From: Planctomyces sp.
GTDB lineage: Bacteria; Planctomycetota; Planctomycetia; Planctomycetales; Planctomycetaceae
Length of the DNA: 48,683 nt
Assembly: GCA_013822855.1 (NCBI GenBank)
Contig: PNLE01000007.1
Coordinates: 1 to 48,683, forward strand
Direction: 5' to 3'
Below the pieces are notes generated by a model that searched no databases, was not told the DNA's origin, and saw only the letters and a program-made list of their open reading frames with translations. Shown here in pieces: positions 14,308-20,933 of this stretch. The stretch's first letter is position 1. Every line of letters begins with the position of its first letter. Both the position numbers and the translations under genes were made by a program.

Positions 14308-15666
14308 CTAATCGTTGCGGAGCTTGAGGTTGTGCTCGGTCAACTGGGCGCGAATTTCGTTGAGCGAGGTGACCCCGAAGTTCTTGGTGGCCAACAGCTC
14401 GTCGGCACTCCGCTGAACCAGTTCCGCCAACGTGCCAATCTGCAGACGGGCCATGCACTTGCGGGCACGCACCGAAAGATTGAGATCGGAAACCGGACGG
14501 CTGAGAAGTGCCTGTTCCTGCGGCGAAAGATCATTGCCGATCGGAGCGAAGGCGGCGGCGGGAGCACCACCCCAGGCGGCGGCATCACGCGGCTTGGCCG
14601 GCTGGAGGTTCTGACCCACCTTGAGTCCATGCTGCTGCATCAGATCGCGAATCTCGACCAACGAGGTCTCGCCGAAATTCTTGCCTTGGAGCAAATCGCC
14701 TTCGCTCACGCGGGTGAGATCGCCCAGCGTGTGGATGTCCATACTAGCCAGGCAATTGCGGCTGCGAACCGAAAGCTCGAAATCGGTGACAGGGCGGCTC
14801 AGAAGCTGCGAAAGCCGCGCTTCGTTCCGGGCCATGTCATCGTCGTAGTACATTTCTTGGGTGGCTTCGATGTCCTTCATGTACATGCGGGCACGCACAT
14901 GATTCGGATCGAAGGCCAGCACGCGGCGGAAGCAGAAAGCGGCCGAGGCATAGTTGCCGCGATCTTCGTACAGCAGCCCCAGATTCAGCATCGCACCCAA
15001 ATGGTAAGGTGGGCGCGACAAAGCTTGTTCATAGAGACGGATGGCTTCGGTGTCGTTGCCGTACAGGGCGTTCTGCTCGGCGAGACGGAAGAGAGCCTGG
15101 CTGTGATGTGGATCCATGTCGACGGCGCGTTCGAAGTACTCGATCGCACCGTAAGTGTCACCACGATCGGAGAGGATCGAACCCATCTGGAACGAGTACT
15201 CAGCGCGACGGGCACCTTCCGTCCCCGACTGGCGAACGGCCTTCTCGGCTTCGTCCAACTGGCCGGCCAGGCGCAACGCTCCGGCACGCTTGAGAGTGCA
15301 ATCCACCGGGTCGTATCCGGCCTTGCCAGCAGCGGCGAACTTCTCGGCGGCAGCTTCGAATTGCTCGAGAGCCGACAGCACGTGGCCATGGGCATACAGC
15401 GCCACGGGTTCGGTTGTCAGCTTTGAGAGAATGCTGTCAGCGACGGCGTGCTGCCCCAGCAGCCAGGCACCGATCCCGGCACGGGAAGCCGGACCCACAT
15501 CGCTCTTCCCCGCTTCGACATCACGAATGATCGCTTCAATCTCGACACGGGCGGCAGCCACCTGATCGCCCGAGATCGCCCGGCGCAATTGCGCCAGATC
15601 ATCGGCTGTCAGTGAGTTTTTGCCTTGCAGAATCGCACGAACGTCAACCGGTTCCAAAGACTTCAA
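14308..15666 (-). CDS. TPR protein with two C-terminal RNA polymerase alpha-CTD domains
   Basis: 452 residues. About residues 75-270 are tetratricopeptide repeats, for example RAEYSFQMGSILSDRGDTYGAIEYFERAV and AMLNLGLLYEDRGNYASAAFCF. They are followed by two copies of a domain that closely matches the alpha subunit C-terminal domain, at about 291-350 (RPVTDFELSVRSRNCL ... NFGETSLVEIRDLM) and 390-449 (RPVSDLNLSVRARKCM ... NFGVTSLNEIRAQL). Alpha-CTDs bind UP-element DNA and activators, so the protein may touch DNA or transcription complexes, or use the helix-hairpin-helix fold otherwise. The start is TTG at 15666 with GAGG upstream. The general family is known in planctomycetes; its function is not established as far as I know. 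Confidence 0.9.
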   Translation of the reverse strand: MKSLEPVDVRAILQGKNSLTADDLAQLRRAISGDQVAAARVEIEAIIRDVEAGKSDVGPASRAGIGAWLLGQHAVADSILSKLTTEPVALYAHGHVLSALEQFEAAAEKFAAAGKAGYDPVDCTLKRAGALRLAGQLDEAEKAVRQSGTEGARRAEYSFQMGSILSDRGDTYGAIEYFERAVDMDPHHSQALFRLAEQNALYGNDTEAIRLYEQALSRPPYHLGAMLNLGLLYEDRGNYASAAFCFRRVLAFDPNHVRARMYMKDIEATQEMYYDDDMARNEARLSQLLSRPVTDFELSVRSRNCLASMDIHTLGDLTRVSEGDLLQGKNFGETSLVEIRDLMQQHGLKVGQNLQPAKPRDAAAWGGAPAAAFAPIGNDLSPQEQALLSRPVSDLNLSVRARKCMARLQIGTLAELVQRSADELLATKNFGVTSLNEIRAQLTEHNLKLRND

Positions 15667-16393: not shown

Positions 16394-18949
16394 CTAGACG
16401 GCAGCTTCCCCGGAAACCTCGCCAGCGACTGCGAGCTGCGGCTCGGGTTCGCTATTCGAAGCCTCGAATTCGAGGTGCTTGATCTCACCCACTTCCTTGA
16501 TGACCACCGTCACGCGGTTGTTCCCCTCGAATGACCCCTTGAGCAGTTCTTCGGCAAGAGGATCTTCGATGTAGTTCTCCACCGCACGGCGAAGTGGACG
16601 GGCACCGTATTCGGTGGCGTTCCCCTTCTCGACGATGAACTCGCGGGCCTCGTCGGTCATGACGAGCTGCATGTTCTTCTCACCCAGTCGCTGACGAACC
16701 TTGGCCAGTTCGATGTCGACGATCGACTTCAAATGGTCGCGGGTCAGCGGGCGGAAAACAACGAGCTCGTCGAGTCGGCCCAGGAATTCCGGCTTGAACT
16801 CGTTCTCGATCTCGTGCATCAGCCGCTGCTTCATCCGCTCGTAGCTAGAGTCCTCGTCCTGCTTGCCGAAGCCGAACGTGTTCCCCTGACTGACGACCTT
16901 GGCACCGGCGTTGGTCGTCATGATGAAGATCGTGTTCTTGAAGTCGACCTTGCGACCGAAACTGTCGGTCAGATGGCCTTCTTCCATGATCTGCAGCAGC
17001 ATGTTGAAGACGTCGGGGTGGGCCTTTTCAATTTCGTCGAGCAGCACCACCGCGTACGGCCGGCGGCGAATCTTCTCGGTGAGTTGGCCACCTTCCTCAT
17101 ATCCAACATAGCCGGGAGGAGCACCGATCAGCCGGCTGACGTTGTGCTTCTCCATGTACTCGGACATGTCGATCTGCACCAGCGCGTCCTGCTCGCCGAA
17201 CATGAATTCGGCCAGCGTCTTCGCGGTCAGCGTCTTCCCCACCCCGGTCGGCCCGGCGAAGAGAAACACACCGATCGGACGCTTGGGATCCTTGAGCCCC
17301 GAACGGCTGCGACGGACGGCCTTGGCGACCTGCTTGATCGCTTCTTCCTGGCTGACGACCCGCTTGTGGAGTTCGTCTTCCATGTGCAGCAGACGCACAG
17401 CATCTTCGCTGGAGAGCCGGGTCAGTGGAATGCCCGTCATCTTCGAGACGACTTCCGCCACGACTTCGGCATCGACGACGCCGTCCGTTTCCTTCGACTT
17501 CTCGCGCCATTCGCGGGTCAGATTTTCCTTCTTCTTCTTGAGCTTGTCGGCTTGGTCGCGCAGCGCCGCCGCCTTCTCGAAGTCTTGGTTGGCGACCGCT
17601 TCTTCTTTGGCCTGGTTCAGACGTTCGACTTCATCTTCCAGTTCCTTGAGATCCGGCGGACGCACCATCGATTTGAGCCGCACGCGGGCACCGGCTTCAT
17701 CGATGACATCGATGGCCTTATCCGGCAGGCAGCGCGAGGTGATGTAACGGTTGGAGAGTTCCACAGCCGAGGCGAGGGCGTCGTCGGTGATCTGCACCCG
17801 GTGGTGCTGCTCGTATCGGTCCCGCAGCCCCTTGAGGATCTCGACCGTCTGTGTGGCGCTGGGCGGCTCGACATCTACCCGCTGGAAGCGGCGTTCGAGA
17901 GCCCCGTCTTTCTCGATGTACTTGCGGTACTCGTCGAGGGTCGTGGCACCGATGCACTGGAGTTCGCCGCGGCTAAGTGCGGGCTTCAAGACGTTCGAGG
18001 CATCGATCGCCCCTTCCGCACCACCGGCACCCACCAGCGTGTGGAGTTCGTCGATGAAGAGAATCGTGTTCTTCGCACGCTTCACTTCATTCATCACGGC
18101 CTTGATGCGTTCCTCGAACTGACCACGATACTTCGTTCCCGCGACCATCATCGCCAGATCGAGCACAACGATCCGCTTGTCACGCAGCAGTTCGGGAACC
18201 GAACCATCGACGACCATCTGCGCGAAACCTTCGACGATGGCTGTCTTGCCAACGCCCGCCTCGCCCAGCAGAACGGGATTATTCTTCTGGCGACGGCAGA
18301 GAATCTGGATGACGCGTTCGATCTCGTTTTCACGGCCGATGACCGGATCGAGCTTCGACTGGCGAGCCAGTTCCGTCAGATCGCGGCCAAAGCTGTCGAG
18401 GGCCGGTGTCTTGCTCTTGGAGCTCTTTCCGGAGGCCGAACCACCTGTGGCAGCACCGGCACCGGCTGTCGCCGGGTTGCCGCGCTCGCTGGTTCCTTCG
18501 CCCCCTTCGATCCCGTGACCGAGCAGGTTCAAGACTTCTTCACGAACGTCTTCCAGCTTGAGGCCGAGATTCATCAGCACTTGGGCGGCGACGCCTTCCT
18601 GCTCACGGATCAGACCCAGCAGCAGGTGTTCGGTGCCGACGTAATTGTGGTTGAGGTTGCGGGCCTCTTCCATCGCGTACTCGATCACCTTCTTGGCGCG
18701 GGGCGTCTGGGGCAGTTTCCCCATGGTGACGAGTTCCGGCCCGCTCTGGACGATTTTCTCGACTTCCAGCCGGATCTTGCGCAGGTCGACATCGAGGTTC
18801 TTGAGAACGTTCGCCGCGACGCCCGAGCCTTCCTTAACCAGACCCAGCAGAATGTGCTCGGTCCCGATGTATTCGTGATTGAACCGCTGGGCCTCCTGAT
18901 TGGCCAGTTGCATCACTTTTCGAGCGCGATCAGTAAAACGTTCGTACAC
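16394..18949 (-). CDS. clpC: ATP-dependent Clp protease ATP-binding subunit ClpC
   Basis: 851 residues. This is a Hsp100 unfoldase that feeds substrates to ClpP. Order: two Clp N-terminal repeats ([24 protein letters not shown], residues 1-145); a Gly/Ala/Ser linker; AAA+ module 1 with Walker A GEAGVGKT (about 230) and [11 protein letters not shown]; a UVR-type middle segment [23 protein letters not shown]+ module 2 with GPTGVGKT (about 563); and a C-terminal D2-small domain. The GTG at 18949 ([11 protein letters not shown]) is the start: it has GGAG seven bases upstream and matches the family N-terminus, whereas the ATG at 19063 would add 38 unrelated residues. It is divergent from the thiE fusion. 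ClpP and McsB are not in the window. Confidence 0.97.
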
Positions 18950-19322
18950 AGCGATTCTCCGATGGTGGAGGGTCAGACTCCGATGCGATGATTCAGAACA
19001 ATACCGTTGTTGCCACCGCGTGTCTTGATCGATCGTTCCGCTGACAAGCAGCTTGCATACCAAATGGCGGACGATTTGGCTTCTTCACCACATCCTCAGG
19101 ATTCTAGTAGTGGCCAGCAGACGAGACAAGCTAGACCCGGACCCCTGCATTGCGACGGAAGTTCAATCATTGTTTGATCTAAGGTGAAAATCTCGGGTTT
19201 CCCGCCCCATCTCCGGTGATTTGCAAGATGAGACCTTAGGATTCCACGCCGACCATCGGATCCCGACCAACCGCCGACTTTCCGCCAGACCAATTGTCCT
19301 GCTCGAAGGGTCTCTGCCTGCC
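18950..19322. other. Divergent promoter region of clpC and the thiE fusion
   Basis: About 370 bp. I looked for a CtsR-type operator (paired GGTCAAA), a CIRCE element, and the TPP riboswitch core (CTGAGA and the TGACCTGATC-like arm) and found none. A weak repeat, TCAATCATTGTTTGA, lies at about 19161-19175. Nothing else stands out. Confidence 0.5.
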
Positions 19323-20933
19323 ATGGAACACATTCTGACAGCCGCCGCCCTCCGCGTGATCGAGGCCGCCCGTCGCGTTCTGTCGCAGTCATCGCTTGCA
19401 GGAACCGATTCTTCGGCGCAGGGATCAGAGATCTCGGCATCGGATTGGATTGCCGAAGAAGCGGTCTTCGCCGCAATCATTGAGGAAGAGTCCGTCGCCC
19501 ATCAGCGACTGGTCGAACAGGGTCTGGACATTGATGATTTAAAGGAGCGGATGGGGCGAACCGGCAGCACCCCGCCGGGCGCGGACAATCATTCCTGGGC
19601 AAAAAACGATTCAGAACATGGAGCATGGGGCGTTTCCCTCGAGCGGATTATCCGGCAGGCCAGGCACGAAGCTCACAAATCTTCCCAGCCTGAAGTTGGG
19701 ACGGAGCATCTGTTGCGGGCTCTTTTCGAGATCGACGGTTGGCTGAACGACTGGCTGGCCCGCGAAAAGCTGACGCCCAACCTCACAAAACATGGAATGG
19801 GTTCCGCGAACATGAGCACTCTTGCCGACACGCCATTGGAGCATGATGCCATTACGCTGCCCGAAGTGGCCGCGCCCCAAAACCTGACGGCCGTCTACCG
19901 CCTGCTGGACGCCTCGGCGAACAGAGCCCGCGAAGGTCTCAGAGTCATCGAAGATTCCGTCCGCATGATCGGCAACGATGGCTGGCTCTCGCGACAGCTC
20001 AAGGAAATGCGGCATGCCCTCTCCTCGGCTCTGAGAATCCTCCCGGATGACGCCTTGCTGGCGAGTCGTGACACGCCGGGTGATGTCGGGACACGAATCT
20101 CGACCACCGCCGAAGGAACCCGCACCTCCCCGGCGGATGTCGTCGCCGCCGGCTTCAAGAGGTTGCAGGAATCGCTCCGCTCCCTCGAAGAGTACGGCAA
20201 GATCATCGATGGCTATTTCGCTTCCCGCATCGAACCCATCCGGTACCAGTCCTACACCATAGAAAAGGCCGTCCGCCTGAATGAACTGGCCCACAAGACC
20301 CTCGATGACCGCCCCCTGTATCTGCTGCTCACTGAAAAAATGTGCCGCCAACCCGTGGGTCAAACCCTGAAAGCGGCTTTGCAGGCGGGTGTGCGGATTG
20401 TGCAGGTTCGTGAAAAGGCGATGTCCGATCGAATACTGCTGGATCATGTGCGGCGGGTAGGCGATCTGGCCCACGAGTACAACGCCCTCGTCGTGATGAA
20501 CGACCGGCCTGATCTCGCCGCCATCGCCGAGACCGACGGGGTACACGTCGGCCAGGACGAACTGACCATCGCCCAGGTTCGGCGCATCGTGGGGCCGCGA
20601 ATGATGGTGGGCATGTCGACCCATGTACTGGATCAAGCCGAGGCCGCCGTTCGCGATGGAGCCACCTACATCGGCGTCGGGCCGACATTCCCCACGACCA
20701 CCAAATCCTTCATGGAATTCGCCGGGCTGGATTATGTCAGAGAAGTCGCGCGGGAGATTGTACTCCCCGCCTACGCCATCGGCGGCATCACCCTCGAGAA
20801 CGCCGCCTCCGTCGTCTCCGCTGGCGCGACCCGCCTCGCCGTTTCCAGTGCCATCTGCAGTGCGGAAGCCCCCTACGACGCCACGATGAGACTGATGGAA
20901 ATTCTCGTGGCGGCGTCACACCACAAAGACTGA
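19323..20933 (+). CDS. thiE: Thiamine phosphate synthase with ThiD2 and Clp_N-like domains
   Basis: 536 residues from ATG 19323; the upstream GAAGGG is distant and weak, and ATG 19221 would add 34 residues. About residues 1-165 look like two Clp N-terminal repeats: MEHILTAAALRVIEAARRV, then LERIIRQARHEAHKSS ending in VGTEHLLRALF. Residues about 186-325 match the ThiD2-type extension of long TMP synthases: YRLLDASANRAREGLRVIED, with RFKRLQESLRSLEE-like helices. The TIM-barrel ThiE follows from about 329: RPLYLLLTEK, RIVQVREKAMSDR, VVMNDRPDLA, GVHVGQDELT, YIGVGPTFPTTTK, AIGGITLENA. It joins the thiazole and pyrimidine phosphates. The Clp_N-like head and its position divergent from clpC are unusual. 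Confidence 0.9.
   Translation: MEHILTAAALRVIEAARRVLSQSSLAGTDSSAQGSEISASDWIAEEAVFAAIIEEESVAHQRLVEQGLDIDDLKERMGRTGSTPPGADNHSWAKNDSEHGAWGVSLERIIRQARHEAHKSSQPEVGTEHLLRALFEIDGWLNDWLAREKLTPNLTKHGMGSANMSTLADTPLEHDAITLPEVAAPQNLTAVYRLLDASANRAREGLRVIEDSVRMIGNDGWLSRQLKEMRHALSSALRILPDDALLASRDTPGDVGTRISTTAEGTRTSPADVVAAGFKRLQESLRSLEEYGKIIDGYFASRIEPIRYQSYTIEKAVRLNELAHKTLDDRPLYLLLTEKMCRQPVGQTLKAALQAGVRIVQVREKAMSDRILLDHVRRVGDLAHEYNALVVMNDRPDLAAIAETDGVHVGQDELTIAQVRRIVGPRMMVGMSTHVLDQAEAAVRDGATYIGVGPTFPTTTKSFMEFAGLDYVREVAREIVLPAYAIGGITLENAASVVSAGATRLAVSSAICSAEAPYDATMRLMEILVAASHHKD

Follow-up and report, generated by a model that had tools for sequence, protein, structure and literature searches.

The window, by which we mean the whole 48,683-nucleotide stretch of planctomycete DNA analysed here, carries a thiE gene whose product has an unusual N-terminal domain and whose neighbour is a divergently transcribed clpC. 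The features of the locus are the following.

16394..18949, minus strand: clpC, the divergent neighbour; GTG start at 18949, 851 aa, two full Clp_N repeats and two AAA modules (Pfam)
18950..19322, no strand: divergent intergenic region between clpC and thiE; 373 bp, without an Rfam element and without a remaining inverted repeat
19323..20933, plus strand: thiE, a Clp_N-ThiD2-ThiE fusion; 536 aa, ATG start, TGA stop
19323..19800, plus strand: degenerate double Clp_N domain, called ThiN below; residues 1 to ~160, with repeat 1 at ~5-79 and repeat 2 at ~97-155, assigned from Pfam, hhalign, a PDB profile search and an AF2 model with VIA-align
19801..19883, plus strand: linker of low model confidence, likely flexible; residues ~160-187, pLDDT <50 at 160-182
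19899..20267, plus strand: ThiD2 domain; residues 193-315, PF17792, E 2.7e-38
20316..20855, plus strand: ThiE (thiamine monophosphate synthase) domain; residues 332-511, PF02581 (TMP-TENI), E 5.6e-55, Foldseek best match 2tps

The divergent arrangement described in an earlier, sequence-only reading of this DNA is correct: the two start codons lie 373 bp apart, and position 18950, from which that reading counted, is intergenic and directly past the clpC start. Among the genus-mates, clpC is 96% identical and the start methionine of thiE is kept. Neither a TPP riboswitch nor another RNA element was found near thiE with Rfam. A recent local duplication in the window was rejected, as there is no inverted repeat between clpC and thiE. 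On the far side of clpC, at 14308-15666 on the minus strand, lies the gene of a protein in which TPR repeats precede two domains resembling the RNA polymerase alpha-CTD (Pfam RNA_pol_A_CTD, 1.3e-40, in two stretches).

Behind the N-terminal part, ThiD2 and TMP-TENI domains follow each other in the order typical of bifunctional ThiD2-ThiE enzymes, in agreement with the sequence-only reading. Residues 185-530 match the corresponding NCBIfam equivalog, NF002727, with 359 bits against a cut-off of 335. The enzyme is probably active, since an alignment of 42 relatives shows no variation in the ThiE-type motifs. No AAA module was matched in the fusion protein by Pfam, which sets it apart from the ClpC unfoldase.

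The N-terminal ~165 residues had been read as two Clp N-terminal repeats, and Pfam, profile-profile alignment, PDB profile search and the predicted fold all agree on this. The window protein matches Clp_N (PF02861) above the Pfam cut-off, with 24.1-26.3 bits against 20.7, the 24.1-bit match covering residues 113-138. Taken on its own, the window sequence is recognised mainly through repeat 2 (VGTEHLLRALF), and both repeats emerge once relatives are included; 37 of 38 relatives' N-termini match Clp_N individually (Pfam). An alignment of the ThiN profile with the planctomycete ClpC N-domain, a comparison that the sequence-only reading had called for, spans 137 columns and both repeats, with a probability of 97.8 and an E-value of 7e-13 (hhalign). 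Against PDB sequences a profile finds ClpC at 5.7e-28, ClpB at 7.5e-18 and ClpA at 4e-12; by sequence, ClpC is the closest Hsp100 type.

The top Foldseek rows for the full-length model show the ThiE barrel only; the N-domain was therefore folded and searched separately. Folded alone with AF2 it reaches a mean pLDDT of 80, and the model contains two helical repeats with the predicted fold of an Hsp100 N-domain. Its VIA-align matches to ClpC N-domains, the phosphoarginine-bound 5hbn among them, have Z-scores of 13-14, and the structure-match rows shown are all Hsp100-type N-domains or their relatives; as helical models may reach such Z-scores by chance, the Clp_N assignment is founded on the sequence evidence. 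From that evidence the homology is confirmed as real and a chance match is excluded. Another Clp_N match in the same genome (C103) was discarded as a chance hit that overlaps groEL.

The fusion is spread across the class Planctomycetia and is not a local oddity. A ThiE match was found in 110 of 120 genomes of the family and in 196 of 198 genomes of the class. The extended, ThiN-bearing form is the rule in families f1, f2, f3, f4, f8, f9, f13, f14 and others, and a short ThiE without ThiN occurs in f5, f10, f11, f12, f15, f17 and f95 as well as in the f1 genera g34 and g8. Outside the class, ThiN was absent from every locus examined, including 14 further loci of which most have long frames. Separate reading frames near a short thiE gave no clear match to ThiN besides ClpC itself. 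ThiN was likely lost several times, because the enzyme-body tree requires about ten state changes over its 106 rows.

Clp_N also seems to be mobile in the class. In f17, whose ThiE is without ThiN, Clp_N domains are fused to apparently membrane-spanning regions (L155:6412-7608, L156:6158-7462 and L160:6923-8083, the last with a weak HAAS match). Further Clp_N proteins without AAA modules were seen at L157, L158, L159 and L161, with a UVR motif in L159.

With a flank of ~9 kb in most regions, clpC was found divergent beside thiE in 13 of 20 f1 regions and in 9 of 11 regions of f5, f7, f9-f11, f13, f14 and f16-f18 (at 3.2 kb in f17). The same arrangement exists in several lineages without ThiN (f5, f10, f11, f12, f15 and f95). 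For the sequence-only reading, a domain that is standard in long ThiE proteins without clpC linkage would have counted as a refutation. This is what we observe in f2, f3, f4 and f8, where none of the 21 regions has clpC beside thiE, and linkage is therefore dispensable for keeping the fusion; many other carriers do have the divergent clpC. The linkage is old and common, and offers an opportunity for capture.

We propose that early in the class Planctomycetia a thiE divergently linked to clpC took up a duplicate of the 5' part of the clpC coding sequence. This duplicate would have diverged fast, stayed even where clpC moved away and been lost in several lineages, and in genus g126 a fresh ClpC N-domain would have entered the same place. 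A capture of the clpC 5' end by thiE, suggested by the sequence-only reading, appears well supported for the class, mainly from outside the window, where g126 has a near-intact ClpC N-domain beside a divergent clpC; for the window's own lineage, homology and linkage point to an ancient event. Anatomy and origin taken jointly, it is likely that the gene product is a bifunctional ThiD2-ThiE with an N-terminal domain homologous to that of ClpC, acquired by a capture that concerns the whole class.

The donor of the main ThiN could be another Clp_N protein, as the tree gives the main ThiN group no place within ClpC and cannot root it there. ClpB, whose fold match is equally good (Z 13.2), is one candidate; another is a stand-alone Clp_N protein, since stand-alone and membrane-fused ones are present in the class. 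Such a donor is improbable in our estimate: the sequence profile prefers ClpC over ClpB by ten orders of magnitude, and clpC is the neighbouring gene in many lineages.

A second capture, later than the one proposed for the main ThiN, may be visible in g126, represented by two genomes, G261 (L100) and G515 (L146). There, the N-terminal slot of thiE holds a near-intact ClpC N-domain, at 50-59% identity, and both genes adjoin a divergent clpC. Pfam Clp_N scores 92.7 bits on the L100 domain and 93.3 bits on that of L146, and the first ~140 residues of the L100 protein reach 173 bits with the ClpC N-domain model. In the N-domain tree, the g126 domains lie among the ClpC N-domains (support 99), and a branch with SH-aLRT 87 (99/97 in a smaller, careful tree) sets the other 87 ThiN apart. 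The g126 ThiE bodies nest in a clade (support 99) in which the remaining members have either ordinary ThiN or no ThiN.

AU tests were run on a reduced set rather than on the full 131-row tree. Forcing the g126 domains together with the ThiN of their relatives, a group chosen from the enzyme-body tree, is rejected (p 0.0147), while forcing all ThiN, g126 included, into one clade is not (p 0.122). The first outcome favours a second capture and the second leaves it short of proof; from these sequences we regard it as probable.

The two g126 N-domains are only 43% identical to each other, compared with ~80% for their ThiE bodies and 98.7% for their ClpC N-domains, and the clpC nearest to each is not its own. 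The capture was therefore not recent and the domain is fast-changing. Recent gene conversion was rejected, since other clpCs come at least as close to the domains as their own do. In L100, a 79-nt inverted repeat, 85% complementary, is still present between clpC and thiE, which speaks for capture.

It is possible, if unlikely, that there was a single capture only, g126 having kept an ancestral, slow-changing ClpC-like domain while all other lineages diverged. The unrejected single clade of all ThiN is compatible with this, as is the lack of any particular closeness between the g126 domains and their own clpC. Against it, the rejected grouping is the one to be expected from the enzyme bodies, the main ThiN group reaches 99/97 without g126, and the g126 domains are themselves fast, unlike what slow retention implies. 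One ancient capture followed by a later recapture is the most economical reading.

What ThiN does can be approached from its conservation. In three genus-mates, dN/dS (NG86) is 0.16-0.20 for the N-domain versus 0.01-0.08 for the catalytic domains, values that rest on few substitutions, comparisons with the window being saturated. By this measure the N-domain is under moderate purifying selection: maintained, but loosely. That it was lost repeatedly and diverges rapidly suggests that the enzyme can do without it or that it is under loose constraint. As a separate observation, synonymous divergence between the thiE genes of L059 (9426-11015) and L003 is ~0.3 over the catalytic part and ~0.06 over the N-domain, a pattern that a recent recombination of the 5' part could leave.

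In the ClpC N-domain, E32 and E106 are the basis of two pockets for phosphoarginine (PMC12583610). The position aligned with E106, the glutamate of the repeat-2 GTEH motif, is E or D in 81 of 87 ThiN; its conservation gives no more than a hint of the substrate or adaptor interface for ClpC that the sequence-only reading had considered, because the motif may also be structural. At the E32-aligned position (ClpC site 2), E is found in 10 of 87. The window protein has Glu at both positions, with a loose alignment of repeat 1. Since most ThiN have lost E32, and K85 of ClpC has not been preserved, ClpC-like ligand binding may be gone. One glutamate of ThiN, E56, is invariant.

As for possible partners, the arginine-kinase family of McsB was found in all 79 class genomes searched, that of the window included. 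ClpS was found in none of the 20 f1 genomes and in 55 of the 59 other class genomes searched; its absence rules it out as a ThiN partner in f1.

At less than even odds, we tentatively propose that ThiN has no part in catalysis and serves, on its flexible linker, as a module for protein interaction. It would keep part of the ligand-binding surface of the ClpC N-domain around the repeat-2 GTEH glutamate (E106 in ClpC). The amount, partner choice or location of ThiE would thereby be coupled to the proteostasis network of ClpC and McsB; ThiN might, for example, be a docking handle through which ThiE becomes a regulated client, or it might compete for the ligands of ClpC. Judged from the sequences, an interaction or turnover role tied to ClpC/McsB is plausible, and we give a role as passenger or in packing much the same likelihood. 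A stronger form, in which ThiN works as a sensor or docking module, places thiamine synthesis under control by ClpC/McsB arginine phosphorylation and was recruited to ThiE more than once because such control is useful, seems to us quite doubtful.

The passenger role, to which we give somewhat less than an even chance, holds that a captured ClpC N-domain is tolerated and serves only the folding, solubility or oligomer packing of ThiE, with no link to Clp. It accommodates the absence or loss of ThiN in g34, g8, f5, f10, f11, f12, f15, f17 and f95, its fast divergence, the lost pArg2 glutamate and its retention without clpC linkage in f2 and f3. It sits less easily with a domain kept in most families of the class at a dN/dS of 0.16-0.20, with a conserved fold and the invariant E56; moreover, a useless part would have been inserted a second time in g126 only by coincidence.

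A decoy or sponge function is also conceivable, by analogy with mycobacterial ClpC2, a partial ClpC1 homologue that protects mycobacteria from cyclomarin (PMC10030653): a free-standing ClpC-type N-domain would soak up toxins or ligands directed at ClpC. The ThiN fold resembles the ClpC2 domain (8ad9, Z 11.7). We find this very improbable for a domain attached to a housekeeping enzyme, with ligand-site residues that are only partly conserved and no evidence of induction.

The fusion is a clear example, spread over a whole class, of a housekeeping enzyme bearing the domain by which the product of an adjacent protease gene recognises its substrates, and a probable second capture can be placed on the tree. 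If ThiN binds ligands or partners of ClpC, a vitamin pathway would be tied to protein quality control, and the fusion would provide a natural model for the transfer of Clp recognition domains between proteins. In the literature we found no published description of a Clp_N fusion to ThiD2-ThiE; domain databases may list the architecture.

Its components are already known, both as Clp_N domains without an unfoldase (ClpC2 and ClpT-type subunits) and as ThiD2-ThiE. Residues 185-530 of the window protein are an ordinary member of the ThiD2-ThiE family NF002727, present in cyanobacteria and other planctomycetes, whose model has 349 positions and is without the Clp_N part. With the ClpC N-domain (PF02861; PDB 3pxg, 5hbn), ThiN shares two Clp_N repeats, the fold (Z 13-14) and the repeat-2 GTEH motif; it differs in being placed on ThiD2-ThiE instead of AAA modules, in having mostly lost the repeat-1 Glu, and in its ~20% identity. 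Mycobacterial ClpC2 is likewise a ClpC-type N-domain without an unfoldase, but no enzyme is attached to it, and it acts as a repressor of its own promoter and as a binder of cyclomarin (PMC10030653), two activities that ThiN is not known to have. Algal ClpT-like subunits (PDB 7eko chain O, Z 12.5) also have the Clp_N fold outside an ATPase; they belong to a protease complex, whereas ThiN is part of a metabolic enzyme.
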